Below, one piece after another: positions 48,144 through 54,431 of a DNA stretch of 64,000 bases. Below the pieces are notes generated by a model. The model made no database searches. It saw only the letters and a list, made by a program, of their open reading frames with translations, and was not told the origin of the DNA. Source of the DNA: Heliocybe sulcata (taxonomy: Eukaryota > Basidiomycota > Agaricomycetes > Gloeophyllales > Gloeophyllaceae); the NCBI GenBank assembly GCA_004369045.1, contig ML213504.1, positions 963,508 through 1,027,507 of the forward strand. Direction: 5' to 3'. Position numbers and translations under genes: made by a program. The stretch's first letter is position 1. Every line of letters starts with the position of its first letter.

Positions 48144-48183
48144 CCCAGTAAGAACCGACATTTTTAAATATCATTTAGCTTCG
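48144..48183 (+). repeat. left terminal inverted repeat (40 bp)
   Basis: Reads CCCAGTAAGAACC...AGCTTCG and is the exact reverse complement of 50089-50128. Confidence 0.92.
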
Positions 48184-48595
48184 GTGTCGTTCAATTACTT
48201 CGAGCAAAATCATTTAACTTCTAGAAAGTTGCCAAACCGTATCTTTCCGTTCTCTTGCCCGTGACCGCATTGGGACGTGGGAGACGCGAAGTTGCATGAA
48301 CGCTAAACACATTGCGTGTTGTGCGTCGTTGGTGTCAGCGTCGCACGCTCCTGCAGTACAGTGACGCCGACGCGCTCCTTGCAGCACAGTCAGTACTTTC
48401 CAGCTACGTCATCCGCTACTATGCCACGTCATGCATTACAACAGGTGCCCTCCGCCACGTATACCTAGCACGTCGTCTGCTCCTCCACATGTCGTCTGCC
48501 CGCCCGCCCCGACGCGGCTTCTTGTCTTCGACCAGACCGGGCGTGTCGTCCTCGACTGCACCTGGTGCGCTCTCGTCGACAATTAACGATTGTAG

Positions 48596-49040
48596 CCAGC
48601 ACAGCGACTACAACTGTGCCGGCACGTTCTCCTCGACGCTACTTGACACCTTGCTGGATTGGGGACTCGACGCGCCGTTTGTATCCAGCAAAACGACTGT
48701 AACTGCGCGCCGCGCGTTCTCGTCGACAGCGGCTGGATCTGGGCCTGGGCGCGCCGCTAGTTCAGGGACTTGATGCGCCGCTAGCTCCAGGACTCGGTGT
48801 GCCACCTGCTCCGCCGATCGTACCCAGCAAGACGACTGCTATCGCGCCCGGCGCGGTCTTGACGACACTACTCGACACACCGCTGGATCGGGGACTGGGT
48901 GTGGTACCGCCAGCTCGGGGACTTAACACACCACTAGCCCCAGAGCTCGGTGCACTGATCGTATCCAGCACGACAACTGCAATTGCACCCGGCGCATTCC
49001 CAATGACGCTACTCGACACGCCGCTGGATCGGGGACTGCC
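48596..49040. repeat. diverged long tandem repeats inside the transposon
   Basis: Four related segments of about 75 bp begin near 48596, 48681, 48826 and 48962. Each has a ccagca-cgac start, a cggcgc middle and a gctggat-ggggact end. Shorter units around 48750-48800 (gccgctag followed by ggactcg) repeat between them. Both strands stay open over parts of it, which is what GC-rich repeats do and not good evidence of a gene. Confidence 0.7.
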
Positions 49041-49293
49041 CAACGTGCCGCCAGCTCAAGGGCCCGACGCGCTGCGAACTTCGGGACTCGACGTGGTCGC
49101 TACTTTGGCGATCGATGCATCACCCGCTCGATTATCTGCCGGGTTCTCGTCGGCACTAATCGACACGCGGCCAGCTCCAGGACTCGAAACATCGCCACCT
49201 CCGAGCCTCGAGACCTCATCGTCTTCGGGCACTATACCTCATGCGTCCTCGGCATCTGCAAATTGTTTGTAATGTCTTGCTTGACCTTTTTAC

Positions 49294-49640
49294 AATTTAT
49301 GTTCTGCTATAGCAGCCGCCAGCACTGCTTCGAAGAAGCCGCGCCGTACCTGGACTGTCCCGAATGAAATGAATGCAAAGTATGTTATTCAGCAGCATTG
49401 TCGTACACACTAACATATGCTAATACAGGAATGAATGCGCTCGTGATTGGCAGGTGAAACACCCAGAGAAACTGCAGAAGGAGTTTGCAGCATATTATCG
49501 AGCGCTCGATGGAGATGCAAAGCGGGTAAGTGTCATCCGAGATCTCGTACATGGGTAGCTTCTGATTGATTATTCTTTTTGTCGATACAGCCTTGGAAAG
49601 ATTGATTACGGAAAGCTGGGGCATTGAAGGAGAATCAGCC
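49294..49640 (+). pseudogene. coding-like patch inside the transposon
   Basis: Translation gives STASKKPRRTWTVPNEMNAK, then after a GT...AG segment NECARDWQVKHPEKLQKEF and AAYYRALDGDAKR, then another consensus donor (gtaagtgtc) and a frame with a stop soon after. This looks like exons of a basic, helical DNA-binding-like protein, but no complete gene can be built. It could be a remnant of an element protein or captured host exons. Confidence is low. Confidence 0.3.
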
Positions 49641-50088
49641 TGCTATAAAGGTGTGTCACTCGAGCTTATTAATTATTCGCTGGATCATGTAACTGAGCAA
49701 AAGCACAGAAATGACCACGGTCCGTAGGCATATATGGCGGGAGGTGGGGTAATGGAGGACCAGCAGTAGTGGTGTGAGGGTAGGGTGGCTGGAGGGCTGG
49801 AGGGGATGGTGCCCGTACGGATAGTAAATGAATGAAGTTGTTTGATCAGAAATGATTCCAAATGAACCTGAGTACAAATGTGATCGCAACGCTAGTGGAC
49901 GGGCTGGCATCATTTACGATCTTTCAATTTCGTGCACCGTAAAGGTAATGATTGTCAATGATCTTGAATGAGATCGGATGAACTTGATGGATGCTCGCAA
50001 TCTTTTAAAGCTGAAAATCGGCAACTTTTGTCAATTAAGAGCTTTCAATATCATTGCTTTTCATTGTGCTATACTAAATGAAGTATAT

Positions 50089-50128
50089 CGAAGCTAAATG
50101 ATATTTAAAAATGTCGGTTCTTACTGGG
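50089..50128 (-). repeat. right terminal inverted repeat (40 bp)
   Basis: Exact reverse complement of the left repeat at 48144-48183. Confidence 0.92.
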
Positions 50129-50899: not shown

Positions 50900-53800
50900 A
50901 TGGACTTCAGACAGGAGCGTGATAGAGACAGCGAAGAGTATGTCGTTATTGCAATAGACCTGGCTGACTCGTAAGCTCATTCTTGGTAAAGGACGTTCAT
51001 GTACCCGGGTTCTTCAAGTTCTCCATCGACAAATACGCCTGCAGAAGAGTCGGACGATGAAGAGTTTGTGTACCCTGGTGCATCCTCCGACGGTCAAGAT
51101 ACTCAGCAAGCCGCTTCTACCTCGGAAGCCGCTTCGTCCACAGTGGTCGAACCAGGGTACCAGCCAATGGTCCAGCCTGCAGCACAGCAGGCCTCTCCAG
51201 CTCAGCTAGAGGCTCTCTATGCCGCGTCTTCTTCAGGCGATCTTAGGCTGCTCCAGAACCTCCTCCGCAACGCACGCCAGTCGGAGAATGTAGAGGCATT
51301 CGCGCTTGTCAATGATGCTTCCTCCAGGACTGGGCTGACTGCTTTGCATGCAGCCGCTAGCAGAGGCTATTTGGATATCGTAAAGTGGTGTAAGCGCGTA
51401 TGTTTTCTTCTCTACACGGCTCTGAACGAGGTGTGCAGTAATGGAGGAGTGTGGTGCAATGGCCGACATTGATGACAAGGAAGGAGAGGTTCGTACTCAA
51501 TTGGGCCCGTGGTGTGAGCGTGCTTATACTTTCACAGAATGCATTGCATAAAGCGGCGCTTAACGGTCACATGCCAATCATAAAGTATCTACTGCCGGAC
51601 AAGGCAGACGTCCATGCGCGAGATGCAGATGGGTGGACCGCCTTGCATAACGCGTGCTCCAAGGTAATTGTTTATATCTACACACTAATGTTCCTGGCCT
51701 CATAATATGGCAAGGGCTATCTAGGAATCGTCAAATGGTTGTGCGAGGTGGCGGGTGCTGCGTCGGAGGTCGGCGGCGTGCGCGGAGTTGACCGCAGGAG
51801 TAACGGTGGTTGGACACCTTTGAGTGAGTCTATTCATGCCACTCAGCTTCATGGCTGCCTTGCTGACAGATTGATGGACAGTGAATGCGGCTTCGAAAGG
51901 GCATTTGCCCGTCGTAAACTACCTACTGAATAAGCAATCGGCCAATCCTCTAGTCAGAAATAATTGGGGAGAGACTGCTTACGACGCAGCAGCTGCCGTC
52001 TTCGAAGTGTGGATTTGCGAGGTACGTGTCGGCGTTTTGGAGGGTAGACTCGTTCCTTATCATGCTGTACGACAGGTGCTTCAGAAAGCGGAAGCGGAGC
52101 AGTGGAGGGGCACTACGGTTCCCTACGATCCGCTAGCTGTCCACACTACTGTGCCCTTGGTGTTATACGAGAACCAGCGGCTTGATGCACGCCTGAAGAC
52201 TCTTGCGGTATCCGGCGGACGGCCCAGATTCTCGGCTTCGGGTTTGGGCAGACAAGGCCGGCGAGCCCCCTTCGAGTTAAAGTTGCCTAAGTCCGATGAT
52301 GCAGGTAAAAGGGAGGTGCCTGCTTGGAGGAGTGACGTGCATTTGCCTTTCTTGCATGACCCGTTCGTATTGCCGCCACCTACCAAGGAGGACGCGTCGA
52401 TTCAAGGAGCTGAGAGGAGTCATTTCTGGTTGTGAGCAGGCTTCATCTTGGGCCACGCGCGTTTCATATCTGAATAGATTTTTGCAGATCGGATTGGACA
52501 TTGGATGTCACCCATCCCAAGGTGAATGCCGAAGAAGGCTGGCAATACGCTCGTACGTTCCAAGACCCGGACGAGGAATGGACAGCCGAGCCTCCCCCTC
52601 CGCTCGAGCGCCTGCTAAACGGCGGCGGTGCCCTGACTGCTGGATTTTCGGGGACCTCGTCCGTTGCGAATGGCACACGTTCGCGCTCTGGTACTCAGAG
52701 CGCACAATCATGGGTGCGTCGCCGGCGCTGGGTTAGAGTCATGCGAAGGAGGCTGGATATACCGCCGATGCCGTTCATGGAGCCGGATGGGAATATGTAT
52801 CACATGGGGTCGGATGGTGCGCTGGTTCGCGTCATGAATGACAGTGATAGCGCGTTTGCGGAGGGCGGGCAGGAAATGGGGGTCATGCCGTTGAGTGGGT
52901 TGTTGGCTGCGGGGGATTATGTTGCTCGGGCGAGGTACCTTGCGGGAGGGGAGGAAGAGGAGGGCCAGGCGAATGGCGCGGTGGATGCTAGGCGAGCCAT
53001 TGCGAAGTTGGAGCGGGCGACGATGGAGTTGAGGCAGGGGATCTCTGGTGAGCAGAAGGGCCGGCAGCGATTTGCAGTTGTTCATTTCTGCCCATCAGGT
53101 GATGTCGACCCTGAGCGGAAGACCCAGGCTGAGGTTTTACTGGACGCATATACTCGCGAGCTTGAGCGCAGACGGCTTAAAGCTGGTTCTCAGGGCTTGT
53201 TGATATCCGGTTCTGGTGAGTACCCAGAGTTTCTTTCCGTGCGGTTGCTGATAGTTTGTTAGATGTCGGTCCTTTCGAGGACGATGAGGACGATGAAGAA
53301 GAGTTCCATTACCCGGGTGCTTCTCCGTCATATGCGCAGAGCTCTAGGGCTAGGTCGGCATCGATCCGCTCTGGTAGCACCGATTACTTCGGGCGCAACA
53401 CGAGAGGTCCTACTGATCTGACACCGCAATTGTCGCAAGCACCAGAATTCAGAGTGCCTACCCATGAGATGCCTCAAAAGGTCCTGACGCCTACCTACAC
53501 GCCACCTACGCCACATCAGGTTCACGCGCAGTGGGAGAGGGACAGCAGTGTAGCAGAGTGTCGAGATTGCCATCGGAGGTTCAATTTCATCACCCGTAGA
53601 GTGAGTGGCGTCCCTCGGATTATTCGGATATCGGGCTGACGACCGTACAGCATGTGAGTATATTAATCATCTCTGCGATCCGGCTGCTGAGCTCGACGTA
53701 GCATTGTCGGAGATGTGGGCGCATCTTCTGCGACCGCTGCTCCTCCTATCGCGCAGTCCTAGATCCCTCTGACGTCATCTACGATCCGTCCCTGCCCGAA

Positions 53801-54431
53801 CCCACAGCTTCAGGCTCGTCGCATCGCGTGTGCCGGTCATGCTACGAAGAGGTGAACGCGAACGTGCCTAGCCCTCTCCAAATTGGAGGCGGGCGCTCGA
53901 TGGAACGGATAGTTATAGACGAGGGCAGGCTCTCCGCCTCTCCCGCAGGTCGGCGACGGTCTAGCTCGCAAATTAGCGACTTGAATGAGTGGGTCTGGCA
54001 CGCCAAGTGCTCGTGTTGGGAGACTGACGTTACGCAGGTGTCCTGTCTGCAGTCAAAATTTGGAAGAACTAGGTGACAGCTCTGTACAAGAAGCTCATGT
54101 CAAGCTATGTCTTGAAGGCGGTGCTGGAGCCTCGCCACCGACGGCTAAATATCTGGTATACAGATTGCCAGCGGAGAGCGCTCTCATCGGTGTCGAATGT
54201 GCGTATTGTTTTGCACGTTTCATAACGAACCGCCCTCTGACTCTGTGCTAGGCGTCATCTGTTTAGAGGAATTTCTGCCAGGATCCGAAGTTGCTCGCCT
54301 GAGCTGCCTATGCAGCTTCCACAACAGTCTGTCCGTTCCCTGTGTGATCTCTGCGAATACTGATGTCTGGTATAGCTTGCCTAACTTCTTGGCTGCAACG
54401 AGGCCGTAGCTGTCCAGTTCACGCCAGATGA
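50900..54431 (+). CDS. ankyrin-DysF-FYVE-UBZ-like-RING protein (putative endomembrane E3 ligase)
   Basis: Multi-domain protein. The start MDFRQERDRDSEE (exon 1 50900-50937) is joined to TFMYPGSSS. Ankyrin repeats follow (GLTALHAAASRGYLDIVKW, NALHKAALNGHMPIIKYLL, GWTALHNACSKGYLGIVKWL, NAASKGHLPVVNYLL). DysF-N/C segments come next (WTLDVTHPKVNAEEGWQYAR, WVRRRRWVRVMRRRLDIPP), as in Pex30 and TECPR1. The FYVE finger reads QWERDSSVAECRDC, RRHHCRRCGRIFC and VCRSCYEEV, needing a 3-nt exon at 53651-53653; it binds PI3P. A CPVC...HVKLC finger resembles UBZ. The RING is ECVICLEEF, then CLCSFHNTCLTSWL and CPVH, of yeast Pib1 type. Ubiquitin transfer at endosomal or vacuolar membranes is inferred. About 14 exons. 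Confidence 0.82.
53651..53653 (+). other. 3-nt micro-exon (CAT) in the FYVE motif
   Basis: Exon ...CGTAGA ends at 53600 with a gtgagtgg donor. The acceptor cgtacag ends at 53650; CAT is followed at once by a gtgagtat donor; the next acceptor is cgacgtag ending at 53701, then CATTGTCGG. Including the CAT gives RRHHCRRCG, the FYVE consensus. Skipping it gives RRHCRRCG with one histidine lost. Confidence 0.65.

Follow-up and report, generated by a model that had tools for sequence, protein, structure and literature searches.

We analyzed a window of 64,000 nucleotides on contig ML213504.1 of Heliocybe sulcata, whose assembled genome comprises 31.6 Mb in 51 contigs. The window contains a Upa1-type gene in which the coding region of the FYVE domain is interrupted by two introns, with three nucleotides of exon between them. 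The features, in window coordinates, are as follows.

50900..54431, + strand: Upa1-type gene with 15 exons and 14 introns, coding for 937 aa; the start codon was picked by inspection.
51059..51076, + strand: PAM2L-like core EEFVYP, found by sequence inspection, with an EFxxP core as in PMC4466420.
53048..53098, + strand: 51-nt intron, revealed by comparison with the homologue P0002; it has no in-frame stop, and its retention adds 17 aa.
53298..53315, + strand: PAM2L-like core EEFHYP upstream of the FYVE domain, found by sequence inspection, with an EFxxP core as in PMC4466420.
53532..53842, + strand: coding region of the FYVE domain, starting at the W of WERD and ending with the last CxxC (Pfam PF01363, 71.6 bits; PDB FYVE chains), with two introns inside.
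53601..53650, + strand: upstream intron GTGAGT...TACAG of 50 nt; retention leads to a stop, TGA, ending at 53639.
53651..53653, + strand: 3-nt exon CAT, exon 11 of 15, coding for His745, the first histidine of RRHHCRRCG.
53654..53701, + strand: downstream intron GTGAGT...GTAG of 48 nt; retention leads to a stop, TAG, ending at 53701.
54038..54431, + strand: C-terminal RING region (Pfam PF13639, 35.9 bits) with introns at 54199-54251 and 54327-54375.

On a 954-aa model that retains the intron at 53048-53098 (the corrected protein has 937 aa), Pfam placed Ank_2 with five stretches, followed by FYVE at 738-814 and zf-RING_2 at 911-951, which is the Upa1 order of ankyrin repeats, FYVE and C-terminal RING. 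The 120 homologues listed, of 263 in total, share 59-74% identity over the FYVE-RING part, and we take nearly all of the named ones to be agaricomycetes. Because of the Pfam domains, the two EFxxP cores and these agaricomycete homologues, the gene is, as far as sequence can tell, an agaricomycete orthologue of Ustilago Upa1. The Ustilago maydis protein likewise combines ankyrin repeats, PAM2L, FYVE and RING, and its FYVE domain, which endosomal localization there requires, places it on mRNA-carrying endosomes; deletion of FYVE and RING together abolishes movement and function, and deletion of the RING alone does not (PMC4466420). The part of that paper covered here reports no micro-exon, and the word "intron" is absent from its main text.

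By the FYVE criteria of WxxD, R(R/K)HHCR, RVC and eight cysteines, as given in PMC3017826, the protein has all motifs of the domain, namely WERD, RRHHCR, RVC and four CxxC pairs. Five other FYVE loci were found in the genome. Four of them have an uninterrupted R(R/K)HHCR, and the scanned frames of the fifth, L006, contained none. A sequence-only reading of this DNA had spoken of a FYVE zinc motif that depends on the CAT exon. It was right about the FYVE domain, which Pfam recovers, and mistaken about the metal: the zinc ligands are the eight cysteines, R(R/K)HHCR is the PI3P-binding motif, whose second histidine helps in ligand choice (PMC3017826), and the histidine pair acts as a pH switch (PMC3001460). 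On Pfam, the isolated domain scored 70.6 bits with the histidine and 60.8 bits without it, a loss of 9.8 bits.

Exon 10 ends with CGT AGA at 53600, exon 12 starts with CAT TGT CGG AGA TGT GGG, and the reading frame across the CAT exon is RR-H-HCRRCG. With the CAT included the junction reads CGTAGA followed by CATCATTGT, and without it CGTAGA-CATTGT. Fusing both introns into one of 101 nt loses a single residue and keeps the frame, leaving 936 aa. We enumerated splice forms with one or two introns of 30-130 nt, using donors at 53570-53705 and acceptors at 53600-53729. This gave 63 GT-AG forms (106 once GC donors were allowed), four of which were in frame and stop-free to CRRCGRIFCDRCSS. RRHHCRRCG without extra residues came from the reported intron pair only; the other in-frame forms gave RRHC, RRVSGHC and RRVSGHHC, the last of which was rejected as an alternative route to HH, as it adds VSG and uses a poor donor. 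The introns at 53601-53650 and 53654-53701 lie exactly where the sequence-only reading had placed them. Frame and enumeration also agree with its claim that RRHHCRRCG needs the CAT and loses one histidine without it, and the different acceptor giving HH that would have spoken against it was sought among the 63 forms, where only the reported pair yielded HH free of additional residues.

A coding segment of 3 nt is thus flanked by an acceptor and a donor, the donors of the two introns being strong and the acceptors weak. Scored with a matrix built from the 12 other introns of the gene, the two donors were the strongest GTs in the stretch (10.0 and 8.7; others 4.8-9.1), and the acceptors reached 2.7 and -0.5 (the 12 others 0.9-8.2), the second falling below all others; a competing AG at 53712 scored 2.1. 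The other 12 introns measure 47-58 nt, which makes a merged intron of 101 nt, about twice the usual length, odd for this gene. The pattern GTRNGT-N34-56-YAG-N3-GTRNGT-N34-56-YAG matched once in the window on both strands, against a mean of 0.1 in 40 first-order Markov sequences, a rarity that is suggestive alone and decisive only together with the comparative data.

We compared the motif across homologues. The first search, made with the HH form and therefore slightly biased towards HH, listed 120 of 263 homologues, 38 with HH, 70 with one histidine and 12 with something other; later searches used the single-His form and are biased towards H. All 11 rows of the first search sourced from assembled contigs alone (lgn) had HH, as did all eight junction-spanning jgi/lgn rows from the single-His search, and both histidines were thus present in 19/19 junction-spanning, transcript-like proteins from assembled contigs. 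Among 125 named gene models (ncbi, uniref or nr; 109 rows of the first search and 16 of the single-His search, with P0085 counted once), there were 30 with HH, 79 with H and 16 odd ones. For HH versus H, the assembled-contig proteins and the named models differed with a Fisher p of 8.6e-10. We take the 19 proteins to be RNA-derived, a sample type suggested by their ORF structure, because the 11 long proteins, of 892-1027 aa, each form one open frame, compared with 14 introns in the gene here, and because relatives' ORFs break at the junction; two of the 19 sit on contigs that are long for a transcript (P0119, 10,921 bases; P0187, 8,210 bases). A single-His protein was sought among these 19 and found in 0/19, in a set of homologues that are cluster representatives at 90% identity, where an isoform differing by one residue would be hidden.

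Near-identical genes disagreed in their labels. P0057 (HH) matched P0113 of Suillus subluteus (H) at 95.9% over 435 residues, and P0016 (HH) matched P0050 of Phanerochaete sordida (H) at 91.5% over 446 residues. On a label tree of 121 rows (FastTree only, long branches flagged), the H and HH labels needed 28 changes. The H group alone took 35 changes (shuffles: mean 39.0, with 49/500 as low), the HH group alone 29 (mean 33.2, 32/500), and the three labels together 39 (mean 43.7, 9/200). Because these counts lie only slightly below the shuffled means, the labels are scattered for the most part, with slight clustering, and are not fully random; clades with HH throughout were Rhizoctonia/Ceratobasidium (7/7) and Schizophyllum (3/3).

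Some models carried another residue in place of the first histidine. The models of P0038 and P0086 read RRQHC and RKQHC, and an acceptor 3 nt upstream was seemingly used to fill the missing residue. The P0194 model (Collybiopsis) reads RRYHC, and P0199 (Jaapia) the same as read in a shifted frame; either the histidine has truly changed to tyrosine, or these models are wrong as well.

Short homologous ORFs from assembled contigs run from exon 10 directly into the intron and gave a view of the junction in relatives. Because the relatives' DNA is known through translated ORFs alone, CAY codons and splice sites there are deduced from residues. We used 62 read-through ORFs (ids P0122-P0208 minus the named models P0176, P0194 and P0199, the rows without the upstream pattern and the rows with the motif joined). 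The residue after RR/RK was V in 58 of them, corresponding to a GT donor, A in 2 and HV in 2. Read in a shifted frame, AG-CAY-GTRAG is expected to appear as A-C/R-K or similar, or as S-M/T and then a stop. Of the 39 tails with a length of 13 aa or more, which do not include the two H-V rows, 29 carried an AG-CAY-GT signature of this kind at a distance of 49-68 nt from the intron start; 2000 shuffles averaged 1.6 and never exceeded 7. The rule behind this count was widened, with the shortest tail lowered from 14 to 13 aa, after a first look (28/40, with P0176, P0194 and P0199 still in), and was applied in its widened form to the shuffles as well. Tails of at least 26 aa had the signature in 19/20 cases (shuffles: mean 0.9, maximum 5 in 2000).

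Three ORFs (P0122, P0182 and P0185) stay open in one frame across the two introns with the micro-exon between them and reach HCR[RK]CG; P0195, whose donor is less common, likewise crosses both introns. P0185 is nearest to P0062 of Ganoderma leucocontextum (91% over 89 residues), the model of which has one histidine. The micro-exon was thus found at a conserved position in relatives' genomes, as judged from translated ORFs, and the arrangement appears to be widespread in Agaricomycetes. Exceptions were P0203, whose shifted frame we read as having just one intron, placed ahead of HH, and two ORFs that lie closest to Rhizoctonia and Ceratobasidium, P0168 and P0207, which have an intron between the histidines only. 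Because of these, the 3-nt exon is best seen as coexisting with one-intron states, in an arrangement that is not universal and for which we claim no ancestral state. A scan of viral contigs for relatives' DNA returned 55 pattern matches and no relative. We hold with high confidence that the micro-exon is real and conserved.

The ORFs P0163 and P0169 leave exon 10 as R-K-A and not as R-R-V or R-K-V; the upstream intron of their lineage perhaps has a GC donor.

We propose, at a probability of roughly 0.92, that this Upa1 orthologue has a FYVE domain split by two short introns around a 3-nt exon that is widespread, constitutive and often lost in prediction. One intron would lie before the first histidine codon and the other between both histidine codons, leaving an exon of 3 nt (CAT here, CAT or CAC in relatives). 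The likeliest mechanism is ordinary intron definition, in which each intron of about 50 nt would be recognized across itself, and the two would be spliced one after the other; because each is recognized on its own and neither is kept, the codon would always be included, and we infer constitutive inclusion in this species with good confidence. The FYVE domain would then keep R(R/K)HHCR and with it PI3P binding on endosomes, as the motif, the orthologues and the FYVE literature suggest for this protein, and the demand for the histidine may explain why the micro-exon persists. Gene prediction would often lose the exon by treating both introns as a single one of about 100 nt.

We weighed this explanation against others. 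That there is no micro-exon, and that a single 101-nt intron yields a truly single-His protein (RRHCRRCG), agrees with 79 of the 125 named models; we nevertheless give it next to no credence, considering the 19/19 HH among transcript-like proteins, the AG-CAY-GT trace within the relatives' supposed intron, the 9.8 bits that the single-His form drops on Pfam FYVE and the disagreement of near-identical genes (HH versus H). Because the transcript-like proteins are uniformly HH while most models are H, and because of the trace in relatives, the single-His protein looks to be mainly a gene-prediction artefact. The identical GTGAGT donors and the adjacent position of the two introns could also point to a recent duplication of one intron, or to a stwintron, in which an intron is nested in the splice signal of another; both concern the origin of the pair and are compatible with the explanation that we prefer, and we consider them extremely unlikely. 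The intron interiors scored -4.5 against a shuffle mean of -4.6 (sd 3.2), 509 of 1000 shuffles being as good, and recent duplication was rejected on this similarity, which is no greater than that of shuffles. The stwintron was rejected as well, because no splice signal is interrupted by or nested in another: each intron is complete alone, with its own donor and acceptor, and the CAT between them is coding.

If the 3-nt exon were instead a regulated cassette, left out under certain conditions or in certain cell types, the result would be a single-His FYVE without PI3P binding, which would take Upa1 off the endosomes. Skipping would preserve the frame (936 aa) and remove one histidine of the pH-sensing pair (PMC3001460), single-His models are common (79/125), and both acceptors are weak. 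However, the histidine is absent from 0/19 transcript-like proteins though most gene models lack it, and real isoforms should be sampled at similar rates in both; because the histidine rate of the models differs from that of the assembled sequences, the models do not appear to sample real isoforms. The skip intron would moreover be 101 nt long, about double the 47-58 nt usual for the gene. We therefore regard a regulated cassette as very unlikely. The splice-controlled switch of lipid binding put forward in the sequence-only reading finds no footing here, as the codon is included in 19/19 transcript-like proteins and the single-His form was seen in named gene models (79/125); regulated skipping as a switch is unsupported, and minor skipping may occur. 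A further version, an old and conserved dial in which the weak acceptors permit regulated skipping and so give cytosolic Upa1 with PAM2L, ankyrin repeats and RING intact, seems to us similarly a long shot. In such a dial, skipping would halve the pH-sensing histidine pair, and the splicing of one codon could let hyphae detach mRNA cargo from their endosomes.

Returning to the 3-nt exon, we compared it with exons of similar size. The view that 3 nt is near the known lower limit does not hold, because 1-nt exons have been published in plants (PMC8831610) and in Fusarium (PMC12940212). Plant microexons of 1 nt and other sizes within 1-15 nt, e.g. in APC11 and VPS55, are likewise ultra-short coding exons that are conserved across a wide clade and often missed by annotation; they lie in other genes and were demonstrated by RNA-seq and RT-PCR (PMC8831610). 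The 1-nt exon of Fusarium CYP621A is, like the exon described here, fungal, part of a conserved motif (PKG there), located inside an over-long apparent intron and lost by automated annotation, but it belongs to an ascomycete, to one P450 family and to one genus, and its omission breaks the exon phase, whereas here one residue is silently deleted (PMC12940212). Drosophila homothorax also has a conserved 3-nt exon, which is alternatively spliced from a longer exon and gives isoforms with their own functions, whereas no alternative form was seen here (PMC7392893). A functional fungal microexon is also known from Trichoderma Xlr2, where it is needed for the zinc-cluster domain and its inclusion depends on glucose, in contrast to the inclusion here, which looks constitutive (PMC11121469).

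A literature search by title and start of abstract, covering the best-ranked matches of long lists (15 of 2,723 and 15 of 122) with subscription papers mostly outside it, returned no report of a micro-exon in FYVE or Upa1; papers pairing FYVE with microexon include those on Arabidopsis ESR1 and ACINUS. That annotation misses ultra-small exons is already known, and this FYVE/Upa1 exon adds another case, which stands out because it spans a broad range of taxa, falls within a signature motif and drops silently, in frame, out of 79/125 models. This 3-nt exon, widely conserved among mushroom-forming fungi, extends the short list of ultra-small exons. It suggests that where fungal genes are rich in introns of about 50 nt, such an exon can be retained for long at a seemingly indispensable residue. 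It also suggests that these genomes conceal further exons of this kind within what look like introns of about 100 nt. Of the compared named models, 79/125 appear to give the FYVE motif wrongly, with a single histidine. This amounts to a database error of a systematic kind that affects an endosomal protein, and cloning or work on FYVE evolution based on such models would go astray. Gene predictors and aligners can readily be benchmarked on this case.

We made two further observations on this genome. U. maydis Upa1 works with the MLLE partners Pab1 and Rrm4. One MLLE match alone was listed for the H. sulcata genome (G000:C3:454158-454283). Because the U. maydis protein uses MLLE partners, yet one match was listed, an Rrm4-type MLLE in this species is either divergent, overlooked in the exon-wise search, or lacking. 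Upstream of the Upa1 gene, a stretch of 1,985 nt at 48144-50128 of the window is flanked by 54-nt inverted repeats that are 91% complementary. Contigs C6 (99% over 745 nt), C18, C30 and C33 carry partial copies of this stretch, which is probably a DNA transposon.
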